DNA from: Acidobacteriaceae bacterium KBS 83
GTDB taxonomy: Bacteria > Acidobacteriota > Terriglobia > Terriglobales > Acidobacteriaceae
NCBI GenBank assembly: GCA_000381585.1
Contig: KB906736.1
Location: 716,789-780,788 of the forward strand
Reading direction: 5' to 3'
DNA length: 64,000 bases
The notes below the pieces were generated by a model. That model was not told the DNA's origin, made no database searches, and worked only from the letters and a program-made list of their open reading frames with translations. The translations under genes were made by a program, and so were the position numbers. Within the stretch, counting starts at the first letter, position 1, and each line of letters starts with the position of its first letter. Shown here in pieces: positions 4,603 through 31,228 of the stretch.

Positions 4603-6717
4603 TTAGTCGAGAACGCCGATGAAGTCGCGCGGGACGTAGTGAAACAGAAGCGTGGTTGAGGCACTGTCTGCTGGCGGGCGATCTCGCCAATGCGGTAGTT
4701 CGCAGCCGCGGAATAGCACCGCGTCGCCCGATCTCTGGGTGACAGCTACCTTTCCTTCATTGGTTTGAAACCACAAGGGCCAAGGCTCAGGGGACGACAA
4801 GTGCGCCGAATAATCGACCCACAGCGACAAGGTGAAAACACACTGCTTTCGGTCAACATGGGGCCGTAGGACGGCACCCTGCTTGTAGGCAGAGACGTAA
4901 GCGTAGGTCGGCTTGACGGGTTCGCCCGCAACTAGGCTGACGAAGCCGGCGAGTTGATGATGGAAATAGCGGGAGACCGACTCGTTATGATAGCCATGGC
5001 GCAGGCGCACCTGCTCATCGCCAGGCAGCCATTCACCATAGGCGATCAGTGCTTGATAGTAGCGGGCGAGCGCGGCCGCATGAGATCTGCGGACGAGGGA
5101 TGGCAGCGTGCAGTAGCGCTTCTCCAGGAAGAGAGGAGCGGCACGCTCGATGAGCGCCATGCCCTCCCGGCGGCGGCGATCAAGTTCCGCACGGGTTGTT
5201 AAGATTGTGGCTTCGGCGAGCTGGATGTAGAGTCTTTCGTCGAGCGCGGGCGGTGGCTGGCCGGCGGCGAACTCCCTGAAGCGAAACGCTTGTTCCCGCC
5301 TCAGCCAGAACGGATAGATCACGTGTGTGGCTGGATCTTCGACCCACAGAAGGGGAAAGTCGGCGAGGAACCTTTCGCGGAACCGGGTTCTCTGCAGGAG
5401 TGCGAGCGGCACAGTCGGCCCAAGTTGAAAGTGAAATGATGGGTCGACAATTCGATCAGCGCCGTTCGGCTGAGACAACGGCGCGATCTCGTCGATGAAG
5501 CACGAGAAACGTACCGGGGTGTTGACCGGTCTTGGCGGAGGAGCGCTCTGGCGGCCGAGGTCTCGCAGCCGTGCCCTCACGAGGGTGAAGCGGTCGAGAA
5601 CTGACTCGCGAAACGAAGGATTGCTACGCCATTTGATAGGCGAGGGAGGGCTGATGGTCGTGCTGGAAAGCGGGAGGGGCCGCGTTAAAGCGGCGGCGAG
5701 GTGCTCATCATAGGCCATACCGGCGAACTCGCAGATTCGGCGAGCCGTCGCCTCTGACGCCGCGATCAGCTCCATGTAGTCGACGCTGATCCATCGGTCT
5801 AGAGGTAGAGCTTCCAAATCCTCAAGGGCCCGATGGTTGGCGGTGCCCCATTGGAACGCCGCGACCTCAAGCAGCGAAGCTTCCTTCAACTCACGCCACC
5901 CCTCGGGTAGCAGTAAATGCCACCGGCCCAGCCTCCAGCCTGGGAGGTTGGGGATGTTGATGAACCCTTCGTGGTGCCAGGCTTCGAGGATGCTGCTGAC
6001 GCTCTGACGAGCATCGCGATGTAGGAAGATAAACCGGGCGGTTGGAAATGCAGCAGCGAGAAACGAAACCCGCAGGGAGTTCTCGGGCGTCTTCTCGATC
6101 ATGCGAACCGAGCTCGGCCGCTCATCGTCAGCCATCTCCAGATATCGGCGGCCGTTATGGTCGCGAAGTTGCGCGACGAAGCCAGCGATCAGGGCCTCGA
6201 TCGTATCTTCGTTCACATCCAGTTCTGTTAGACGATGTGAATCGAAGCCACGGTTCGCGAGGTGTAGAGAGGGAATTCCTTCGATTACGCCTTCGCTCTC
6301 GCCGCCAATTGTGAACACTCCGCTGCACTTCGAAAGGAGCTCATATAGCAGAGTGCTGCCCGAGCGCGGGGCTGAAATGATGAACACCGGACGATCAAAG
6401 ACGTCAAAAGAGAGCACCTGTTCGTGTCGCGTCGTCCTGGACCGCAGGTCTCTGGTATGGTCCGCGATCCGGTGCAAAGCGGGATCCAACCCGGGATCAC
6501 CGGCAAAAACTTCCAGGCTCGGTCTGTCCTGAAAAAGATAACTCGCCTGGACCGCGCCCTGATCGATGCGCCAGTGGCGGGAACGAAGGCCACCCAGCGC
6601 CGGTGCCGCCTGAGCCGAGATCTCACGCAGCACCGATCGCAATCGGTTGGCCGGGGCCGGAACCCATCTGTAAGTTAGGACCTCCACAAAACCGATTACG
6701 CCGAGCGGTGGATCCAA
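4603..6717 (-). CDS. Fusion of PAPS-dependent sulfotransferase and 2OG-Fe(II) oxygenase-like domain
   Basis: This 704-residue cytoplasmic protein has a sulfotransferase domain at about 105-380. The 5'-phosphosulfate loop is SAPRSGST (about 115-122), EKTP is near 208-211, and the 3'-phosphate-binding segment FLHRDARQSVSS lies near 231-242. The C-terminal part (about 540-704) has a double-stranded beta-helix dioxygenase pattern: HVD at about 620-622, a second His in PHWRD near 676, and hydrophobic strands between them. It could sulfate and hydroxylate the same substrate. The start overlaps the end of the upstream gene by 22 bp, so both are one transcription unit. The sulfotransferase call is firm; the oxygenase call rests on the ligand pattern and neighbourhood. 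Confidence 0.8.
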   Translation of the reverse strand: MDPPLGVIGFVEVLTYRWVPAPANRLRSVLREISAQAAPALGGLRSRHWRIDQGAVQASYLFQDRPSLEVFAGDPGLDPALHRIADHTRDLRSRTTRHEQVLSFDVFDRPVFIISAPRSGSTLLYELLSKCSGVFTIGGESEGVIEGIPSLHLANRGFDSHRLTELDVNEDTIEALIAGFVAQLRDHNGRRYLEMADDERPSSVRMIEKTPENSLRVSFLAAAFPTARFIFLHRDARQSVSSILEAWHHEGFINIPNLPGWRLGRWHLLLPEGWRELKEASLLEVAAFQWGTANHRALEDLEALPLDRWISVDYMELIAASEATARRICEFAGMAYDEHLAAALTRPLPLSSTTISPPSPIKWRSNPSFRESVLDRFTLVRARLRDLGRQSAPPPRPVNTPVRFSCFIDEIAPLSQPNGADRIVDPSFHFQLGPTVPLALLQRTRFRERFLADFPLLWVEDPATHVIYPFWLRREQAFRFREFAAGQPPPALDERLYIQLAEATILTTRAELDRRRREGMALIERAAPLFLEKRYCTLPSLVRRSHAAALARYYQALIAYGEWLPGDEQVRLRHGYHNESVSRYFHHQLAGFVSLVAGEPVKPTYAYVSAYKQGAVLRPHVDRKQCVFTLSLWVDYSAHLSSPEPWPLWFQTNEGKVAVTQRSGDAVLFRGCELPHWRDRPPADSASTTLLFHYVPRDFIGVLD

Positions 6718-8111
6718 CCGTTGATGGTAAAGCGGCTATCCGCAAATTGTTTGGTCGGCACGCGGACGGGCAGCACCTCATGCTGGTTGCGCGACGGAAA
6801 AAAGACCATCGAGTCGTGACGAGGCGACAGCGTGTGAGATTGATCGGCACGCGCCAGTTGGCCGTCCATCAATCGAGTTTTGAAGATGCGCAGTTCTCCT
6901 CCCGAGAACCGGCGCGGTTTGTTATGAAGAAAATAGACGAACGAGAGCGTCCTCGTGTCGTTTGCGTCGCTATCAGGGTGTAGCCGGAAATAATCTCCAT
7001 CATTGCTCGCGGTGGCCTGGATCTCGATCCGGCCGATCGGAAACTCCTTTTCGCCGAGCTTCTGCAGCGCAGGTTGCAGATGCTCTTTGATCTTTTCGGC
7101 GAAGATCGCTTCGAATTTGCCGAGTTTGTCGAGAGTCTTCGACCGCCGCAGTTTTTCGTTCACCGTGGTCGTCTCGGAACCGGATTCAACTACCGTGGCT
7201 GAGACGAAATTATTTTCGTTCTCGATCAGGAAGTTCATGAGTTCTTGGCTCTGCGCTTCCCCGAGGACGTTGGCGTACTCGACTTCAACAAGATCCGCGG
7301 GATCGAAGGCCCACTGTCCTGTGCCGCCTGGCGTGCCGCCCGGTTTGCCAGCGTGGCCGCCACGCACCAACTGGATAATTTCTGAAATCGCTCGGTCGAG
7401 TGCCCACTCCGCTCGGTTGCCCAGATAAAGCGCGCCATGATAGAGGGCGTTCTTTTCCAGGACGTCCGGCGCAATGTCGTGCGCCAGCAGATCGGGAACA
7501 GAAAGGTTGTCGAGGCCGAGATTGCGGAGCACATCGGAAGCCAGGGCGCGATAGGTGTAATAGCGCCCCGACCAGGTCACGAAAACATCGTCGCTCTTTT
7601 TCATCCCGGTTTTGGTCAGGACGTGGTCGACTAACGTCGAACCTTCACCGACCAAATAGCAAACCTCTGCCCGCGGATTCACTGCCAGCTGATCGAGCGC
7701 TTCCTTGAAGACGGCGCTGATCATCCCGATGTTTGTTAGATCCTCGTCGGTCACGTAAACCGCGCTAAGCGCGTAACTATCGTCAGCGACGAGGTGGGAT
7801 TGGCAAAGTCCCACAATGTGCCGCGCGCCGAGTCCCCAGGGCGGCCAGGGGCGGTCCTGCACGGCGACGAGAAGTTGCGAATCGCCTTCGCGCAGCTTGG
7901 GAAGTATAATCTCGTCCATTAAGTGTGGTGCGCCGATCCTGCGAGTAAAAGAGCGGAGCGCCGCGAGAGCCTGATCGCTCAGCTCCTCGAAAAGATCGAT
8001 GCGAATAGAACGGTTGCGGTGATCGAAGAAACGCCTGAGGTCACCTGCCATGGGGAAATACCTCTCAACCAATGACGCTGGACCGAAACAACGATCGGAT
8101 GAGGTTACCAC
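6696..8111 (-). CDS. Prolyl-4-hydroxylase-type 2OG-Fe(II) oxygenase with N-terminal extension
   Basis: The C-terminal third of this 471-residue protein is a P4H-like oxygenase. HxD is at His378/Asp380, GGELRIF is the family strand, the distal His is near 444 in NQHEVLP, and Arg460 in SRFTINGW is the 2-oxoglutarate anchor. The first 270 residues are not recognised; they may be a substrate or partner domain. A glycine-rich linker (about 255-265) divides the halves. It is the first gene of a two-gene unit with the sulfotransferase fusion and is divergent from the glycosyltransferase at 8168. The substrate is unknown, with a glycan-linked or peptide substrate both possible. Confidence 0.8.
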   Translation of the reverse strand: MVTSSDRCFGPASLVERYFPMAGDLRRFFDHRNRSIRIDLFEELSDQALAALRSFTRRIGAPHLMDEIILPKLREGDSQLLVAVQDRPWPPWGLGARHIVGLCQSHLVADDSYALSAVYVTDEDLTNIGMISAVFKEALDQLAVNPRAEVCYLVGEGSTLVDHVLTKTGMKKSDDVFVTWSGRYYTYRALASDVLRNLGLDNLSVPDLLAHDIAPDVLEKNALYHGALYLGNRAEWALDRAISEIIQLVRGGHAGKPGGTPGGTGQWAFDPADLVEVEYANVLGEAQSQELMNFLIENENNFVSATVVESGSETTTVNEKLRRSKTLDKLGKFEAIFAEKIKEHLQPALQKLGEKEFPIGRIEIQATASNDGDYFRLHPDSDANDTRTLSFVYFLHNKPRRFSGGELRIFKTRLMDGQLARADQSHTLSPRHDSMVFFPSRNQHEVLPVRVPTKQFADSRFTINGWIHRSA

Positions 8112-8167
8112 AACTCGAGCGGGCTAGTGATAATTATTTGTTTCACTAACGGAGACAAATAACTTCC

Positions 8168-9079
8168 ATGTTGTTCCGGGCAGATTGGCCGTTCCTGCTG
8201 GTGCTCGACACCGGATATCAACACATCGGGTGGGCCATTCTCAACGGGCCAATTATCACCCCTTCCCAACAAAAACAGTTTGCCCAGCTTCGCCGCTCTG
8301 GGGTTCGTTTGGCGGGCATGTCAAGTTACCGGACGTTTCCCTTCCCTGATAGGGACGACCCCTTGGATTACGAGTCGATTTGCGAGGTATGGTGCCATTG
8401 CTTTCGTGATCCCGGACGCTTCCTGGCCACGGCTATTCCGCGCGCTCTCATCAGCGTGTCGGATTTCACGGATTATCACCGCATCTCTCCGGAAGCGTTT
8501 CGGCCGGATAATTCTTCGGAAACATTCGACTTTGTCTACGCTGGCGGAATAGAGCCGTGGAAGCGGGACATAAAGAACTGGGGACTAGCCGCACGATGTA
8601 TTCCCCTGATATGTCGTGAGATGGGATTTCGCTGCCTGGTAATTGGAGCACCTAGTGTCGACTTCCCGCCGTCCCCAGGAGTCCGGTTCAGTCGTCCTTT
8701 GCCGTGGAAAGAGTTCCTCTCGCGGGTGGCGGGCGCACGATTCCTGTTCGTGCCGAATGAACTTGACGCCTCGCCGCGACTTCTCGCCGAGGGGCTGTGT
8801 CTGGATGTACCGCTGGTAGTCAATCGGAATATCCTGGGAGGTTGGAAATATGTGAACCGCTTTACAGGAAGCTTCTTCGAAAGCGAACACCACGTCGTCG
8901 CGGCAGTTCGCGCTTGTCTCGCCGAGGCGGTGGGGCCGCGCGATTGGTTCCGGACGAACTATGGGCCTTATCAAGCGGGGAAGCGACTGCTTCGCCTATT
9001 GAAGGTCGTCGATCCGGGAATCAGTGAGGGATCCCACCTCTGGCTCGCGGAGCAATGTGAGCAGCCGGTTCTGGGATAG
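8168..9079 (+). CDS. GT-B-type glycosyltransferase-like protein
   Basis: A 303-residue protein with the layout of the C-terminal half of GT-B glycosyltransferases: a strand-loop FVYAGGIEPWKRDIKNWGLA near 121-140 resembling the inter-domain segment, VIGAPS near 160, and DASPRLLAEGLCLDVPLVVN near 198-217 matching the donor-binding E-rich helix. No signal peptide or membrane segment is visible. A GGAG lies about 14 bases before the ATG. Only 56 bases separate it from the divergent oxygenase gene. Its 3' end overlaps the convergent gene at 9021 by 59 bp. Sugar and acceptor cannot be predicted. Confidence 0.7.
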   Translation: MLFRADWPFLLVLDTGYQHIGWAILNGPIITPSQQKQFAQLRRSGVRLAGMSSYRTFPFPDRDDPLDYESICEVWCHCFRDPGRFLATAIPRALISVSDFTDYHRISPEAFRPDNSSETFDFVYAGGIEPWKRDIKNWGLAARCIPLICREMGFRCLVIGAPSVDFPPSPGVRFSRPLPWKEFLSRVAGARFLFVPNELDASPRLLAEGLCLDVPLVVNRNILGGWKYVNRFTGSFFESEHHVVAAVRACLAEAVGPRDWFRTNYGPYQAGKRLLRLLKVVDPGISEGSHLWLAEQCEQPVLG

Positions 9080-9887
9080 TGATGTTAACTACAAGACGGC
9101 TCTCGCCCGTCATAGGCGAGCAATGGATCCAGGCCAGTGCCTTGCTATGATCCTCCCAGAGGTAGCGAATATCGATGTGCTTGAAAGCCACAATTGATCC
9201 GGCCGGAGCAATCTTGATCTCGTCCCGCTGTATGAGGAACGCCCTCTCTCCATCGAGCAGCCCTATTTCTCGCTGTAGGCGATCATAGTCCGCCTTCCGG
9301 CCGTCGTTGCGGGCGACTTTGCTTTCTCTCACTAACCGCTCTCGGCGACTTAAGTAACGGTGGAAGTCAGCAATGCTGGTGACATTTGCTGGATCCACGT
9401 ATTCGGTTCCCGCGCCGTTGTACACTCGCAAGAATCCGTATGCGGGTGCTCCGGGCGGGACAGTGTCAACATGAAACCCGCACTCCGTTGTGGGCTCGTC
9501 GGTGAAGATGCGCAGCATGAACTGAGATGCGTGGCTCAGCGCATGCAGACGGTCCACATTTTGAAGAATATCTGCCTTGAGCGAAGCCCGGACCCCAGTC
9601 GTTACAATCGCTTTCGGCAAATTCTGTTCCAGCCAATCGTCGATTCCATTGCGGCTGGCCTTTGGCAGGACGGTGCGCGGAATGCGGAAGGCACTGCGCT
9701 GCACGGCAGAAGCCAATTCGGGAACCCAGGCTGGCAGCGCCGGCGGAATATAAATAACAGCCTGAACCGCCGGGTTGGTTATGGCTTCCAATTCCCGGGC
9801 ATCATGAGTGCACATCACCTCTGCGTCATCCAAGCAACCGGAAATGGAACTGGGGATTACCAACGACGACTCCCTTTCCTTGCACAA
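9021..9887 (-). CDS. DUF1826-like protein
   Basis: This 288-residue protein carries the pattern CGFHVDTVP, then FLRVYNGAGTEYVDP, and later KHIDIRYLWEDHSKALAWIHCSP, as in the uncharacterised DUF1826 family. The His-x-Asp and later His residues resemble the metal ligands of cupin/2OG oxygenase folds, so an oxygenase-like role is possible but not shown. A charged helical segment (about 175-215) is inserted in the middle. It is alone on the minus strand inside the cluster, sharing a divergent 70-bp intergenic region with the next gene. Confidence 0.65.
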   Translation of the reverse strand: MCKERESSLVIPSSISGCLDDAEVMCTHDARELEAITNPAVQAVIYIPPALPAWVPELASAVQRSAFRIPRTVLPKASRNGIDDWLEQNLPKAIVTTGVRASLKADILQNVDRLHALSHASQFMLRIFTDEPTTECGFHVDTVPPGAPAYGFLRVYNGAGTEYVDPANVTSIADFHRYLSRRERLVRESKVARNDGRKADYDRLQREIGLLDGERAFLIQRDEIKIAPAGSIVAFKHIDIRYLWEDHSKALAWIHCSPMTGESRLVVNITIPEPAAHIAPRARGGIPH

Positions 9888-9957
9888 TCACACACTATAG
9901 GCCGAGTTGCAGTCTTACAACAGCTTCTGACGTAAGTCTAAACGCGGGATCAGGTTC

Positions 9958-10731
9958 GTGAGAGAATATGTCTCACGCTGGTGTAAGCGATTGAGTTGCG
10001 ATCTCTTTATCCGAAGCTACTGGAAAGATTTGGCTTGGCTCGAATTCTGCCTTTCTTCGATCAACAAATACTGTTATGGGTTCCGGGCCGTGGTCATCGT
10101 GTTCCCGCGGTCCAGCAAACCATGGCTGCGAAGATTCACACTTCCAGGTAACGTTCGGATTGAGTTTTGTCATGACTATCGCGATGACTATCTCGGTCAA
10201 CAGGCCACCAAACTCCTAGCCGACAGATTCACCGACGCGGATTACATCTGCCACGTCGACTCTGACTGCGTTTTCTGCCGTGGGACATCCCCCGACAACC
10301 TGATGATCGCCGGACGGCCACGCGTGCTGAAACGGCCTTACCAGTTGCTCGGGCGGTACCACCCGTGGCGTAAGCCAACGGAGCGCTTTCTCGGGTGGAC
10401 CGTAGATGATGATTTCATGCAGCACCCACCCTTTCTGTTTCCGCGCTGGATTTACCCAGAATTACGTGCGCACGCGGTTAGGGTTCATGGGGTGGACGTT
10501 GAAACTTACATTGCGGGGCGACCCGAGCGAGAATTCTCGGAGTACAATGCGCTGGGTGCCCTCGCTTGGGCGCGGTACCGCGAACGCTTCGAGTGGGTGG
10601 ACGCCAGCACCTCGCCAACGGGCGAGCCGCATTGCCGCTGGTATTGGAGTTGGGGTGGCATCGACGACTCGATTCGCGCCGAAATCCATGGGATCCTGCA
10701 TGCAGCCGACAATCAGAATGAGCGGACCTGA
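9958..10731 (+). CDS. GT-A-type glycosyltransferase-like protein (DUF6492-like)
   Basis: 257 residues beginning at a GTG. It opens with DLFIRSYWKDLAWLEFCLSS and contains HVDSDCVF (about 94-101), a DxD-type metal/nucleotide-sugar site, followed by a conserved-looking FPRWIYPELR and SEYNALGAL. These features resemble DUF6492 family GT-A proteins. It starts a three-gene unit: its stop lies 14 bases inside the next gene. It presumably adds a sugar in the pathway served by the neighbouring pyruvyl- and sulfotransferases. Confidence 0.7.
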   Translation: MREYVSRWCKRLSCDLFIRSYWKDLAWLEFCLSSINKYCYGFRAVVIVFPRSSKPWLRRFTLPGNVRIEFCHDYRDDYLGQQATKLLADRFTDADYICHVDSDCVFCRGTSPDNLMIAGRPRVLKRPYQLLGRYHPWRKPTERFLGWTVDDDFMQHPPFLFPRWIYPELRAHAVRVHGVDVETYIAGRPEREFSEYNALGALAWARYRERFEWVDASTSPTGEPHCRWYWSWGGIDDSIRAEIHGILHAADNQNERT

Positions 10732-11512
10732 TGCTCACGAAGAGCGACAATGCGTCTGCGCATTTTGGTGTCGCATCCCGAGCCGCCCGAATTTCGGCGA
10801 CGCGCTCACGCCGTGGCTGATCCAGCGGCTCACTGGACGGCATCCTGTCTTCGTACGCCCGGAGGACCCGCGCCACAAATACTTCGTCACCGGAAGTATC
10901 TTGAGCTATGCGGGCGCCCGCTGCACTGTTTGGGGCTCTGGCATCATGAGCGTTGACGATTCAGTGTCGCCGGCAGCGAATCTGCTGGCAGTGCGCGGAC
11001 CGCTCACACGGGCTCGCGCAATTGAATGCGGCGCCGACTGCCCCCCCCTCTATGGCGATCCGGCCTTGCTCTTGCCGCGATTCTACTGTTCCACCTCGAA
11101 CCAGCGACGCGGAGTGGGCATAGTGTCACACTTCTCCGACAGTCCAAGATTGGGCGCATCATTGTCCCCTTCGAAGGGGATTCAGTGGATCGACATTCAG
11201 GCCCCAATCGAATCGGTGATCGATCAGATTACCTCCTGCGAGTTCGTTGCATCCTCGTCCTTGCACGGCCTCATAACCAGTCACACCTATGGCATCCCTG
11301 CGATATGGGTAAAGTTCCGCGACCTTCCGTCGGGCGATGACAGTAAGTTTCGCGACTATTTCCTATCGATTGGAGAGGAGCCCCCCGAAGCTGTGTGGCT
11401 GAAATACGACCGAATCGATTGCGTCGACTTGGCGCGTCGTGCAAAACTTCCGCTGATGCGGCTCGATCTCGAATCGTTGTGGCAAGCCTGTCCGTTCCGG
11501 AGTCATGCGTGA
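10718..11512 (+). CDS. Polysaccharide pyruvyl transferase family protein
   Basis: The ATG at 10718 is chosen because the family similarity starts there (CAFWCRIPSRPNFGDALTPWL, close to the N-terminal NFGD signature) and upstream codons in this frame run antiparallel to the sense of the preceding gene. It has 264 residues. Other family features are WGSGIM, LAVRGPLTRA, YGDPALLLPRFY and the C-terminal FVASSSLHGLITSHTYGIP. Such enzymes move pyruvate from phosphoenolpyruvate to a sugar as a ketal. It overlaps both neighbours and is surely cotranslated with them. Confidence 0.85.
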   Translation: MSGPDAHEERQCVCAFWCRIPSRPNFGDALTPWLIQRLTGRHPVFVRPEDPRHKYFVTGSILSYAGARCTVWGSGIMSVDDSVSPAANLLAVRGPLTRARAIECGADCPPLYGDPALLLPRFYCSTSNQRRGVGIVSHFSDSPRLGASLSPSKGIQWIDIQAPIESVIDQITSCEFVASSSLHGLITSHTYGIPAIWVKFRDLPSGDDSKFRDYFLSIGEEPPEAVWLKYDRIDCVDLARRAKLPLMRLDLESLWQACPFRSHA

Positions 11513-12306
11513 ATGGTCCAACCTTGCTGGCGGGCATACGCGACGGCAATTATCATGTCGGTGGTATACGCTGCCTGCGCCTATTCCACTTACCGTCGGC
11601 ATGTTTTGCAAGACTTCGTGCCGACATCGATCGCCTATGCCGCGTTGAGCGTGCATCAGATGTCAACGACCCGAATCACATCACAAATTGGACAAGGCCG
11701 CGTGGCAACGTTGTCCAGTTCAGCCTCCTTAATGCCACGGGACGCTACGATGACTTTTCGACTGACCACAACCACTCCTGTCTTGGCAAAAAGTTTCACT
11801 ATTCTGCCCAGTATCCTGCTCTCGCACAATTTGTCGCGCTTTTTCCACACACTATAAACTTCCGGATCAATGTTCTGTCGGCCGGAGCGTCTCTTTCGCC
11901 GCACGAAGAGCACGCCGTCATCCGAACTTGTACCGGCTCGATAGGTGCACGTGCGCGGTTTCACCTGCCGATCGTCAGCAATCCGAACGCAGAGCTGATG
12001 TTAGACGGCTGGGTTTATCACTTGATGCCAGGCACAGTCTATTTCATCAACCACGGGTGTGTGCATTCCGCCTGTAATAGAGGCGAAGATCGCCGGATCC
12101 ATGTCGTCTGGGACATGTTGTTGACGCGCGAATCATTTGACTTCATGTTCGGAAATAGCGCGCACCCACCTATGCTTCTACCGATCGTAGAAAGCGAGCA
12201 AACGCCAGCGCCCATTCGAAGCGAACGTGTCGGGGCACATTTGCGGCTTCCCTCGCCAATTACCCGTGACGAGGCAGATCGTATCGCTTGGTGCGACGTG
12301 CAATAG
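11509..12306 (+). CDS. Aspartyl/asparaginyl beta-hydroxylase-like 2OG oxygenase
   Basis: 265 residues starting at GTG 11509, whose GTGA overlaps the TGA of the preceding gene. The domain fits the Asp/Asn beta-hydroxylase family: SLSPHEEHAVIRT, then ARFHLPIVSNPNAELMLDG, then LMPGTVYFINHGCVHSACNRGEDRRIHVVWD, giving the two His ligands and the distal Arg expected for Fe(II)/2-oxoglutarate binding. It is the fourth oxygenase-type protein in 8 kb. In this context the substrate may be a lipid- or peptide-linked glycan rather than a protein Asp residue. Confidence 0.75.
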   Translation: MNGPTLLAGIRDGNYHVGGIRCLRLFHLPSACFARLRADIDRLCRVERASDVNDPNHITNWTRPRGNVVQFSLLNATGRYDDFSTDHNHSCLGKKFHYSAQYPALAQFVALFPHTINFRINVLSAGASLSPHEEHAVIRTCTGSIGARARFHLPIVSNPNAELMLDGWVYHLMPGTVYFINHGCVHSACNRGEDRRIHVVWDMLLTRESFDFMFGNSAHPPMLLPIVESEQTPAPIRSERVGAHLRLPSPITRDEADRIAWCDVQ

Positions 12307-14905: not shown

Positions 14906-15904
14906 TCACTTCGTTTTTAGGTGTTCACGGGCTCGGGCGTGGCGGGGATAGTCAATCGCCTGCGCCTCTCCCGCTCCATGTGCCTTCGGATGCAGATAGC
15001 GTCCGCGAGTCTCACCGGTCTTTTCCTCTTCAGCGTTGAAGCGATTGGCTCGGGCCCAGGCATCACGACGAATACCGGTGACTTGCCAGTTCACTCTCAA
15101 GCCCGGTGATCCGCCTGCAATCACAAATCTATTCCCTTTCAGTTCTGCACCGACGTAGAGGCCCGGGGCAGGCGAACCTAGTGGCGTGAGCTGGAAGCGG
15201 AAATCGCTGTTCAAGGATTCAAACCATTCAGGCAGCTCGACGGTCACGCTGCTGTTTGCCCCGCAAACTGCGATTCCGTCGTAGATATTCTTTCTTTCCG
15301 GGGATTCGACGAATGAGTGCTGTAAATACTTGTTCGCCGGATCCAGTGGGTGATCGATCTTGAAACCGCCGCCAGCCTTGGTAAGAGTCCCGCTGACGTG
15401 AACATCACCAATAAAGTAACCAGAAAACTGGCCTCCCCATCCCAATACGCCAGTTCCGTTGCTCACGCCGAAAACGCCAATATCCTGTGCGCCGATCCCT
15501 ACAACTCCCCCGGCTGTGCTACTAAAGCCAAACACGCCGTCCCCGGAAGTACTGTCGCCGCGCACACCGACTCCGGTATCGCTGATCCCAGCAACGCCGA
15601 TACCGCCCAGATTCTGCCCATTTGAGGCAGTTCCATAAACAGCAACTCGATCGCTGGGTGCGCTCGAGCCGCCCTGCACGGCCCCAGCCACTCCTACCCT
15701 GGGACCAGTTCCATAAACTCCCGCAGCACGTGGGCTGTCCGCAAGAGTGAAGCCCGCAACCCCGGATGACCCAGCGCTCGCGCCGATAACACCGTTGCCC
15801 CCACCACCGAAAGGACCTGCAGAACCAGAATCGCCCCACACTCCGAAGAACGCGTTTGGGTTGAAACCACTAGGTGTGCCATCATTCCCGGTCACTGGGG
15901 GCAT
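14906..15904 (-). CDS. Glycine-rich repeat surface protein
   Basis: A GAGGAG stands 6 bases before the ATG. Residues about 10-165 are degenerate short repeats of the GVxGxSxxGxGVxG type (for example GVYGTGPRVGVAG, GVGVRGDSTSGDGVFG), likely a beta-helical or trimeric stalk. Residues about 170-330 form a distinct end domain starting SGTLTKAGGGFKIDHPLDPANKYL, a pattern seen at the end of such stalks. No signal peptide is visible. The gene follows a 34-residue ORF by 42 bases, and the two are probably one operon. Confidence 0.6.
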   Translation of the reverse strand: MPPVTGNDGTPSGFNPNAFFGVWGDSGSAGPFGGGGNGVIGASAGSSGVAGFTLADSPRAAGVYGTGPRVGVAGAVQGGSSAPSDRVAVYGTASNGQNLGGIGVAGISDTGVGVRGDSTSGDGVFGFSSTAGGVVGIGAQDIGVFGVSNGTGVLGWGGQFSGYFIGDVHVSGTLTKAGGGFKIDHPLDPANKYLQHSFVESPERKNIYDGIAVCGANSSVTVELPEWFESLNSDFRFQLTPLGSPAPGLYVGAELKGNRFVIAGGSPGLRVNWQVTGIRRDAWARANRFNAEEEKTGETRGRYLHPKAHGAGEAQAIDYPRHARAREHLKTK

Positions 15905-15946
15905 ATCACTCTCCTCAGATCGAAGCTCCAGTCGATGGTTAGGTTT

Positions 15947-29945: not shown

Positions 29946-31228
29946 GAACTTGTTGAAATAGGCACTCCCTCTGCGACATTGCACAGGGCTGTTCGTCTTA
30001 TCGATATGCGAGGAGACGAGCGGGTTCAGGACGGGATGTTCAGCTATGTTTCGTTGGAACAGCGAGTGCCTTCGGATCATCCGTTGCGCGAAGTACGGAA
30101 GGTGACCGACGTTGTGCTGCACACGCTGAGCCCGGAGTTGGATGCGCTGTACGCAGAAGCTGGGCGGCCGTCGATTGCGCCGGAGTATATTCTGCGAGCG
30201 CTGCTGTTGCAGGTATTCTTTTCCATTCGCTCCGAACGGCTGCTGGTCGAGCAGATCGATTACAACCTGCTGTTTCGGTGGTTCGTAGGCTTGGGCATGG
30301 ATGATGCGGTCTGGAACCACGCTGTGTTTTCGAAGAACCGCGATCGTCTGCTGACCGCCTAGGTAGCGCAGCGGTTTTTCGCCGAAGTGAACAGGCAGGC
30401 GAGGAAGTTCATGTCGGACGAACACTTCACCGTGGATGGGACGCTGATCCAGGCCTGGGCCTCGCAGAAGAGCTTCCGCCCGAAGGATGGCGACGGACCT
30501 GGTGATGGAACTAACTTCCATGGCCAGAAGCGCAGCAACAAGACGCACGAATCTACCACCGATCCCGACGCCCGGCTTTACAGGAAGAGCTACGGCAAGG
30601 AATCGAAGCTGAGCTACCTGGGCCATGCGCTGGTGGAGAACCGCAACGGACTGATTGCCGCGGCCATGGTCACACATGCCGACGGATTTGCCGAACGCGA
30701 TGCCGCGCTGTTGATGCTCCGCAGCAAGCAGAGGGGCCGCTCCCGGCGCATCACTGTGGGCGCAGACAAGGCATACGACACGAAGGATTTTGTGCGCACG
30801 GTGCGAGAACTGAACGTGACCCCGCACGTGACGAAGAACGACAAGAACCGCGCCAGCAACCTGGACCGGAGAACCACCCGACAGCCGGGTTATGCCGTCA
30901 GTCTCAGCCGTCGAATCGAAAAGAGCTTCGGCTGGCTCAAGCAGACCGGACCACTGCGCCAGAGCAAACTGCGCGGACTGCGCAAAGTCGATTGGCTGTT
31001 CGTCTTCAGTTGCGCTGCGCATAACTTACTACGCCTGCCCAGGATGATCGCCCAACAACATCGGCCAGTGAACAGGGAGCAGTGTGCCTGAACCCGGTAT
31101 GCGTGCTCACCGGCACGCGCAAACCCCGATTAACACACATCAAATCCCGAGTCCCAACCGATTTAAACTCCGCCACCTCCGCAAAGCCCCAGAAAACACC
31201 CACCATCGAAGCGATTTTCAACAGCTTC
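29946..31228 (+). mobile_element. IS5-family insertion sequence, 1283 bp
   Basis: The terminal repeats GAACTTGTTGAAA (29946-29958) and, inverted, GAAGCTGTTGAAA (31216-31228) match at 11 of 13 positions. A CTAG copy flanks each side (29942-29945 and 31229-31232), as expected for IS5-type insertion at YTAR sites. The element carries one transposase gene with an in-frame stop and has split a host coiled-coil gene. The left TIR is identical to that of the MITE at 3338. Confidence 0.85.
29979..31091 (+). pseudogene. IS5-family DDE transposase interrupted by a TAG codon
   Basis: The same frame runs from 29979 to 31091 with one TAG at 30360-30362. Before it lie the N-terminal helices (SLEQRVPSDHPLREVRKV, IRSERLLVEQIDYNLLFRWFVGL). 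After it come all three catalytic regions: FTVDGTLIQAW (first Asp), VGADKAYDT (second Asp), and RRIEKSFGWLK (Glu). The more natural start is Met at 30006 (MRGDERVQDGMFSY). Apart from the amber codon the gene looks intact, so the loss is recent, unless the stop is read through. Confidence 0.85.

Follow-up and report, generated by a model that had tools for sequence, protein, structure and literature searches.

A seven-gene cassette of oxygenases and transferases scattered across bacterial phyla, with a possible role in peptide hydroxylation and conjugation

Seven genes, here called A to G, lie side by side at positions 4603-12306 of a 64,000-nucleotide stretch of the genome of Acidobacteriaceae bacterium KBS 83 (contig KB906736.1; hereafter, the window), in the order A(-) B(-) C(+) D(-) E(+) F(+) G(+). 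All seven open frames were verified. Gene A (4603..6717, minus strand) encodes 704 amino acids (aa) with an N-terminal region of ~105 aa, a sulfotransferase and a C-terminal 2-oxoglutarate (2OG) oxygenase-type domain. Gene B occupies an open frame at 6696-8111 on the minus strand, of which 6696..8051 is coding (451 aa), and combines a domain of GNAT topology, a Gly/Pro segment and a prolyl-hydroxylase-type oxygenase. Gene C (8168..9079, plus strand, 303 aa) is a glycosyltransferase of the group-1 (GT-B) type, and gene D (9021..9887, minus strand, 288 aa) is a DUF1826 protein with a predicted Fe(II)/2OG oxygenase fold. Gene E (9958..10731, plus strand, 257 aa) is DUF6492-like and a probable GT-A glycosyltransferase. 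Gene F, whose open reading frame (ORF) opens at 10406, has its coding part at 10718..11512 on the plus strand (264 aa) and belongs to the polysaccharide pyruvyl transferase family. Gene G opens at 11395, is coding at 11509..12306 on the plus strand (265 aa) and is an oxygenase of the aspartyl/asparaginyl beta-hydroxylase type. The likely start of B is the ATG at 8051, as read from its relatives and the DNA, and that of F is the ATG at 10718, as read from the DNA; G probably starts at the GTG at 11509, which overlaps the stop of F. A search of NCBIfam with the seven proteins returned nothing beyond one sub-threshold match to B. As argued below, its probable task is to decorate a short peptide with hydroxyl groups, sugars, sulfate and pyruvate.

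The seven genes are conserved as a set. With B as bait, in the form of just two peptide patterns, a single pass over 84,980 collected genomes recovered 13 loci; given so few patterns, this number is a lower bound. The loci belong to a Deltaproteobacteria metagenome-assembled genome (MAG), a Proteobacteria MAG, three Streptomyces, an Actinomadura, a Micromonospora, a Methylococcaceae MAG, a Planctomycetota MAG, two Nitrococcus (one of them a MAG; the two loci, L018 and L019, are nearly identical), a Methylocystis and an Acidimicrobiaceae MAG. Together with the window, a plasmid of Eleftheria terrae and a further actinomycete locus (L028), the total is 16. With tblastn for the six genes other than B, all seven genes were found in 14 of the 16 loci and six genes in the other two; C is absent from L012 and L023. 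In L023, A is also present without its oxygenase half, as far as the N-containing sequence shows. One of the complete sets is split over two contigs of the same genome: L015 begins inside B at a contig end and carries A, E, F and G, and the second contig (L027) has C and D at its end. Apart from the window, then, A, D, E, F and G occur in 15 of 15 loci and C in 13 of 15, with F in L015, L018 and L019 and G in L015 counted from tblastn matches; B is present by construction, since it was the bait. The earlier note on this DNA had described a seven-gene cluster within 7.7 kb and held that co-occurrence of at least four of the seven genes elsewhere would support a system; all seven frames are indeed there, and each of the 15 other loci retains six or seven. 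In L028, whose cassette is otherwise complete, B and C are separated by an insertion-sequence-like transposase ORF, recognized by eye at 10008-11495 on the minus strand.

The plasmid copy provides the closest look at how the set is arranged. In a tblastn search of plasmids, B had a relative (55% identity, 97% query coverage) in Eleftheria terrae, on a plasmid of 737 kb where all seven genes stand in mirror-image order with their relative orientations unchanged and the seven gene pairs align with those of the window at 43-57% identity. A chance neighborhood is ruled out by this synteny and by identities of that size to genes on a Burkholderiales plasmid. (Beside A on the same plasmid, an annotated "hypothetical protein" at 15485-15907 of our extract of that locus, minus strand, sits on a CG-repeat stretch translated as RVRVRV..., so that a true gene is improbable there.) Across the loci the genes occur in four or more different orders. 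Written with B on the plus strand, they are G- F- E- D+ C- B+ A+ for the window type, D+ C- B+ A+ G- F- E+ in actinomycetes, D+ C- B+ A+ E+ F+ G+ in Methylocystis and D+ C- B+ A+ G- F- E- in Methylococcaceae (over two contigs). That the genes have been reshuffled yet kept together argues for a joint function. Junctions inside the cassettes are mostly overlapping or short, the gap between B and C being 31 bases in one locus (L020) and 38 in another (L014). These results confirm the seven genes as one discrete, real cassette.

Elsewhere, in several phyla, the seven proteins are ~33-67% identical to those of the window. When pairwise identities were compared over 12 loci, L011 came closest to the window in A, B, C, D and G, and not in E or F; in L011, E is interrupted and lies in two frames. 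A tree of six joined genes places the window beside L011, and Eleftheria beside Methylocystis, groupings that cut across taxonomy. The cassette appears to have moved horizontally. At E<=1e-50, B was found in two of 396 genomes of the Streptomyces phylum, the seed included (1/395 beyond the seed), and in one of 398 genomes of the Nitrococcus phylum, the seed itself (0/397 beyond it). Full-length A occurs in one of 297 genomes of the window's phylum, namely the window's own, with five more partial matches, and the window's genome holds a single match to B. The cassette is rare and widely scattered among dissimilar bacteria of soil and water, and is not the specialty of one phylum.

Invariant residues described below refer to alignments of 14 sequences for B (without L023, where B is split), 13 for A (without L019 and L023), 13 for D (without L015 and the Nitrococcus duplicate L019), 14 for E (without L019) and 11 for C (without L012, L015, L019 and L023); the G alignment leaves out L018, and none of the six includes L028. 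Among the decorating transferases, the sulfotransferase domain of A (aa 110-338, 5704-6390, minus strand) is the clearest, with a Pfam match to Sulfotransfer_3 (E 1.9e-28, 100.6 bits against a cut-off of 27) that recurs in 13 of 13 aligned sequences. Its top matches in the PDB are CurM and tyrosylprotein sulfotransferases, and we class the domain by these matches as a sulfotransferase that would use 3'-phosphoadenosine 5'-phosphosulfate. F matches PS_pyruv_trans (1.8e-11). The window copy of C has no Pfam match by itself, and nine of the 11 aligned sequences match Glyco_trans_1_4 at E<=1, with a best value of 1.2e-5. Similarly, the window's E matches DUF6492 below the cut-off (0.003), and all 14 aligned sequences match this family at E<=0.1 (best 2.1e-8) and share an invariant DxD (D101, D103), consistent with a probable GT-A glycosyltransferase.

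The other component of the cassette is a group of oxygenases. The earlier note had counted three or four double-stranded beta-helix oxygenases next to glycan-decorating transferases, and the higher number fits: four domains appear to be of that type (the C-terminal domains of A and B, D, and G), beside four decorating transferases. In A, the C-terminal domain (about aa 401-704, 4606-5517, minus strand) carries invariant H620-x-D622 and H676 in 13 sequences and is also found as a stand-alone protein in other genomes. The window's copy of this half is without a Pfam match; across the 13 sequences only 2OG-FeII_Oxy_2 was matched, in two of them (best 0.12). G matches Asp_Arg_Hydrox (PF05118; 7.9e-9, 36 bits against a cut-off of 22.6) and, in the PDB, the beta-hydroxylase 7v4p (2e-5). 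Its alignment has invariant H142, R160, H162, H196 and R206 (alignment numbering), of which H142, H196 and R206 presumably correspond to residues with known roles in AspH. We class G, on its sequence, as an Asp/Asn beta-hydroxylase.

D passes the Pfam profile of DUF1826 with 24.1 bits against a cut-off of 22 and has invariant H139-x-D141, H255 and R264 in 13 sequences. Sequence searches of solved structures with D, C and E returned nothing credible. The earlier note had called for a structure prediction of this protein, and the model obtained (predicted local distance difference test, pLDDT, 87.7) is closest to 2OG oxygenases: the best 50 Foldseek matches all belong to the Fe(II)/2OG oxygenases or to related enzymes, for example IPNS and ACC oxidase. 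Rice DAO is first (E 1.6e-5, template modeling (TM) score 0.41) and KdoO is among them (E 9.9e-5), with TM-scores of only about 0.2-0.4. In the VIA comparison the model matched PHD2 (5lbb; Z 9.3, root-mean-square deviation (rmsd) 5.2, 171 residues aligned) and a bacterial prolyl 4-hydroxylase (P4H; 4j25; Z 9.2, rmsd 3.5, 157 aligned), Z values of about 9 that modestly exceed the common best value for models without a clear match. We therefore predict an Fe(II)/2OG oxygenase fold for D. DUF1826 proteins have also been noted in Zur (zinc) regulons, and parts of two reports treat the family as unknown or possibly zinc-dependent (PMC2770081, PMC5786701). D resembles those proteins in passing the family profile just above the cut-off, and differs from them in its predicted 2OG-oxygenase fold and its position in a modification cassette.

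B has three parts. Its third domain (aa 251-451, 6699..7301, minus strand) is an Fe(II)/2OG oxygenase of the prolyl-hydroxylase type: Pfam matches 2OG-FeII_Oxy_3 (E 3.9e-16), and the ligand residues H358-x-D360 and H424 are invariant in 14 sequences. The AlphaFold2 (AF2) model of B was built from a 13-row alignment (pLDDT 71.7, predicted TM-score, pTM, 0.49). The best Foldseek match of its oxygenase is PHD2 (E 2.6e-10), the best PDB match by sequence is the Dictyostelium P4H 6t8m (9.9e-7), and the best VIA match is the P4H of Pseudomonas putida in complex with EF-Tu (4iw3; Z 18.8, rmsd 2.8, 179 residues aligned), where matches within Z 1 of each other count as tied; VIA also matches the domain to PHD2. 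With its predicted double-stranded beta-helix fold and HxD...H triad, the domain is classed as a PHD/P4H-type 2OG oxygenase. One interpretation of the EF-Tu match, tied as it is, would be that the cassette acts on a host housekeeping protein resembling EF-Tu or a ribosomal protein. Any host could then use the cassette, in keeping with its occurrence in several phyla and with the finding, described below, of no precursor of its own. To our knowledge there is no precedent for a core translation protein that is sulfated, twice glycosylated and pyruvylated, and the rarity and scatter of the cassette also speak against such a substrate, which we consider highly improbable.

Between the oxygenase and the first domain lies the feature on which our reading of the cassette turns, a Gly/Pro segment at aa 224-250 (7302..7382, minus strand; window copy RGGHAGKPGGTPGGTGQ) that is a candidate embedded substrate peptide. 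Its consensus is RGGHxxKPxGVPxGTGR, with an invariant R-G-x-H-x-x-K-P-x-G-x-P-x-G-x-G; R230, G231, H233, K236, P237, G239, P241, G243, G245 and D250 do not vary in the 14 sequences. The block at 226-240 has the second-lowest entropy (0.48) among 15-residue blocks of B and is flanked by more variable stretches; the lowest (0.34) belongs to block 61-75, with DRPWPPWG. Residues 221-250 have pLDDT values of 25-34 and thus no confident model. In L023, two ORFs joined by a TGATG overlap take the place of B, and it is the GNAT half, rather than the oxygenase, that carries a PGGAP, close to its end.

The first domain of B (aa 1-180, 7512..8051, minus strand) has the GNAT-like order b1-a1-a2-b2-b3-b4-a3-b5-a4-b6-b7 in the AF2 model. 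This assignment uses the order of strands and helices alone, as the Foldseek and VIA matches listed (PDB and viral libraries) are all taken up by the oxygenase domain. No acetyltransferase family is listed for the 14 members of B at E<=5, in searches in which domain 1 was not used alone, and [QR]xxGx[GA], which we take to be the acyl-CoA signature of GNAT proteins, is not seen in domain 1 in the 14-sequence alignment. The domain is possibly a degenerate GNAT-like domain. Its strand order is one of the reasons to consider that the cassette makes a small molecule from a metabolite present in every cell, for instance a free amino acid, with the GNAT-like domain as acylating enzyme and the oxygenases acting on the free or acylated amino acid. 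Such a product could be made without a precursor gene, in line with a cassette that has no companion genes, and the G profile matches a free-proline hydroxylase (4p7w, 2.7e-4; weakly also 1e5r, 0.052). Set against these points, the acyl-CoA signature was not seen, the B oxygenase resembles enzymes that act on peptides and proteins, and the rigid conservation of the Gly/Pro segment would be left unexplained; we regard a small-molecule product as unlikely, and prefer a peptide substrate.

If the substrate is a peptide, a gene for it might be expected near the enzymes. An all-versus-all BLAST of 3124 ORFs from 15 loci revealed no further conserved family: among the families listed, which are those present in at least three loci (the largest represented by their first 20 members), there were only the seven genes and their antisense shadows. 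We also compared small ORFs (18-130 aa) in 2.5-kb flanks of 13 of the 16 loci, leaving out L015/L027, L018 and L023. BLAST gave 10 ordered cross-locus pairs at E<0.05, compared to 27 with reversed proteins, and there is therefore no sign of a small precursor in that search. A separate precursor could be encoded elsewhere in the genome, or be too short or variable to detect within the flanks, ORF sizes and loci covered by BLAST here, and precursors encoded apart from their enzymes do exist among ribosomally synthesized and post-translationally modified peptides (RiPPs). A gene of this kind would have to travel with the cassette between phyla, and none was found within or next to it, which makes a separate precursor rather improbable in our view. 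Two other settings were considered and rejected. A scan of viral contigs with B, sensitive to close relatives only, found no relative that would point to a phage island, and the PADLOC matches that might indicate a defense island concern solely the generic 2OG domain of B, under a CRISPR-associated label. Elsewhere in the window, a protease resembling M61 glycyl aminopeptidases (Pfam) is encoded at 671-2566 on the plus strand, 2 kb from the cassette and outside the families listed as shared by three or more loci, and a transposase-like ORF recognized by eye at 30387-31091 (plus strand) suggests a mobile stretch.

Relatives of the B-type oxygenase outside the cassette offer a comparison. Six plasmid records match B; one is the Eleftheria cassette, and four of the other five place the relative in RiPP-type clusters. 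On a Pseudanabaena plasmid it stands beside Nif11 precursors and LanM, and on an Azospirillum plasmid between an Asn synthetase and a lasso B2 gene, with PqqD nearby. On the UR115 plasmid it adjoins an A-type oxygenase (34% identity, E 1.7e-19), followed by Asn synthase, PqqD and a sulfotransferase. On a Tistrella plasmid it occurs with Asn synthase and PqqD, and two sulfotransferase-like ORFs were recognized there by eye only. The tailoring enzymes of the cassette thus appear to be related to those of RiPP-type clusters. Two of the lasso-type clusters are unannotated in their records, and both have Asn synthase, PqqD and a B-type oxygenase: one (L042, 5869-11824) adds a sulfotransferase by Pfam, and the other (L040, 2919-11089) adds sulfotransferases, an HprK-like ORF and a 63-aa precursor-like ORF seen by eye only. 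Near an A-type oxygenase in another locus (L032), a PqqD domain fused to a Cys-rich tail (5880-6476, plus strand) is possibly a precursor that carries its own recognition domain. At E<=1e-25, a B-type oxygenase occurs in six of 297 genomes of the window's phylum, the window's included, and in three of the other five (L029-L031) it neighbors an A-type oxygenase. In L029 the B-type oxygenase (5724-7058, plus strand) follows a repeated APQPPG array in the same chain, after an N-terminal region of ~110 aa, and the A-type oxygenase is the next gene. More distant B-type oxygenases (L046, L048, L049) have no clear peptide context.

These relatives bear on whether the product is a glycan. The earlier note had suggested a surface glycan or glycopeptide, and of the two the glycopeptide is favored, since no flippase, polymerase or priming transferase was matched among the seven, no other listed family occurs in three or more loci, and relatives of the B oxygenase lie in RiPP-type clusters. 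A surface or capsular glycan, with oxygenases acting on sugars or lipids, deserves consideration in that the pyruvyltransferase, glycosyltransferase and sulfotransferase families often act on glycans and the Kdo hydroxylase KdoO appears in the Foldseek list of D. On the other side, no flippase, polymerase, export gene or priming transferase was found among the seven proteins by Pfam or among the families listed in at least three loci, the B oxygenase is closest to prolyl hydroxylases, and four of its five plasmid relatives outside the cassette are found with RiPP genes. We consider a glycan substrate a poor fit to the data.

Our preferred interpretation is that the cassette is self-contained and modifies a peptide by hydroxylation followed by conjugation, with the embedded segment of B as the substrate. 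This reading is tentative, and we give it a probability of about 0.4. The four Fe(II)/2OG oxygenases would place hydroxyl groups, B on proline and G as an Asp/Asn-type enzyme, with the C-terminal domain of A and D as the other two. The sulfotransferase, the two glycosyltransferases and the pyruvyltransferase would then cap or extend these hydroxyls, and the product would probably be a short hydroxyproline-linked sugar with sulfate and a pyruvate ketal. The peptide, which we infer rather than observe, as we do the site of action of each enzyme and the product, would most likely be the Gly/Pro segment between the GNAT-like and prolyl-hydroxylase domains, in which case B would be precursor and enzyme in one chain. 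In a stricter version, B would hydroxylate the segment within its own chain, the three further oxygenases and the transferases would decorate it, and a cassette that moves between phyla with no additional gene would yield a constant hydroxyproline glycopeptide or glycoprotein; this version seems to us somewhat doubtful.

Several observations weigh against this interpretation. The pairwise identities of the genes correlate at 0.79-0.96 over 12 loci (10 for F), or at 0.73-0.96 over 11 loci without one Nitrococcus duplicate, with E lowest; this co-variation speaks for a set conserved as a unit, and it also reflects shared ancestry. An invariant Gly-rich stretch fits a ligand-binding loop equally well, RiPP cores are usually more variable than the segment of B, and its low pLDDT may result from the shallow 13-row alignment alone, at a pTM of 0.49. 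In L023 the segment retains only PGGxP, and this one MAG locus cannot prove a link between the segment and the parts missing there. No recognized protease, transporter or leader-binding domain was found in the seven proteins by Pfam. Among the relatives, the B homolog on a Gloeocapsa plasmid lies near a nonribosomal peptide synthetase and a tyrosinase; no lasso or LanM marker was seen by eye in the other five genomes of the window's phylum, and the surroundings in two genomes (G179 and G225) look metabolic. The array in L029 is only suggestive, because Pro-rich stretches are also ordinary linkers.

Parts of the cassette recall known systems. In Dictyostelium, Skp1 is hydroxylated by the PHD-type enzyme PhyA and the hydroxyproline is then glycosylated, as given in part of one report (PMC7864055). 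B resembles the Dictyostelium enzyme, its best PDB match by sequence, and the Pseudomonas PPHD that acts on EF-Tu in its predicted oxygenase fold and HxD...H ligands; it differs in its fusion to a GNAT-like domain and a Gly/Pro segment, with three more oxygenases, a sulfotransferase and a pyruvyltransferase alongside. In borosins, a RiPP precursor is fused to its modifying enzyme, according to part of another (PMC8429565), and B would likewise hold its proposed core peptide in the enzyme's own chain. Unlike borosins, which have an alpha-N-methyltransferase, the cassette gave no methyltransferase match among its seven proteins by Pfam, the segment of B lies between two domains, and its modification is a proposal only. 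Lasso clusters with a hydroxylated peptide, and with a putative sulfotransferase gene, are mentioned in part of a third (PMC8498205). UR115 resembles these, with oxygenases of both the B and the A type and a sulfotransferase in the neighborhood of Asn synthase and PqqD. In the cassette, neither the seven proteins (Pfam) nor the families listed in at least three loci include an Asn synthase, a PqqD or a B2 protease. We found no description of the cassette in the literature searched, whose coverage was mostly without subscription journals.

A set of seven genes that recurs in several phyla with no visible substrate or partner gene constitutes a well-bounded problem. Through D, DUF1826 gains a predicted enzyme class, that of Fe(II)/2OG oxygenases. 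If the peptide interpretation is true, the cassette would be a bacterial counterpart of hydroxyproline glycosylation to which sulfate and pyruvate are added, with a substrate embedded inside its own enzyme.

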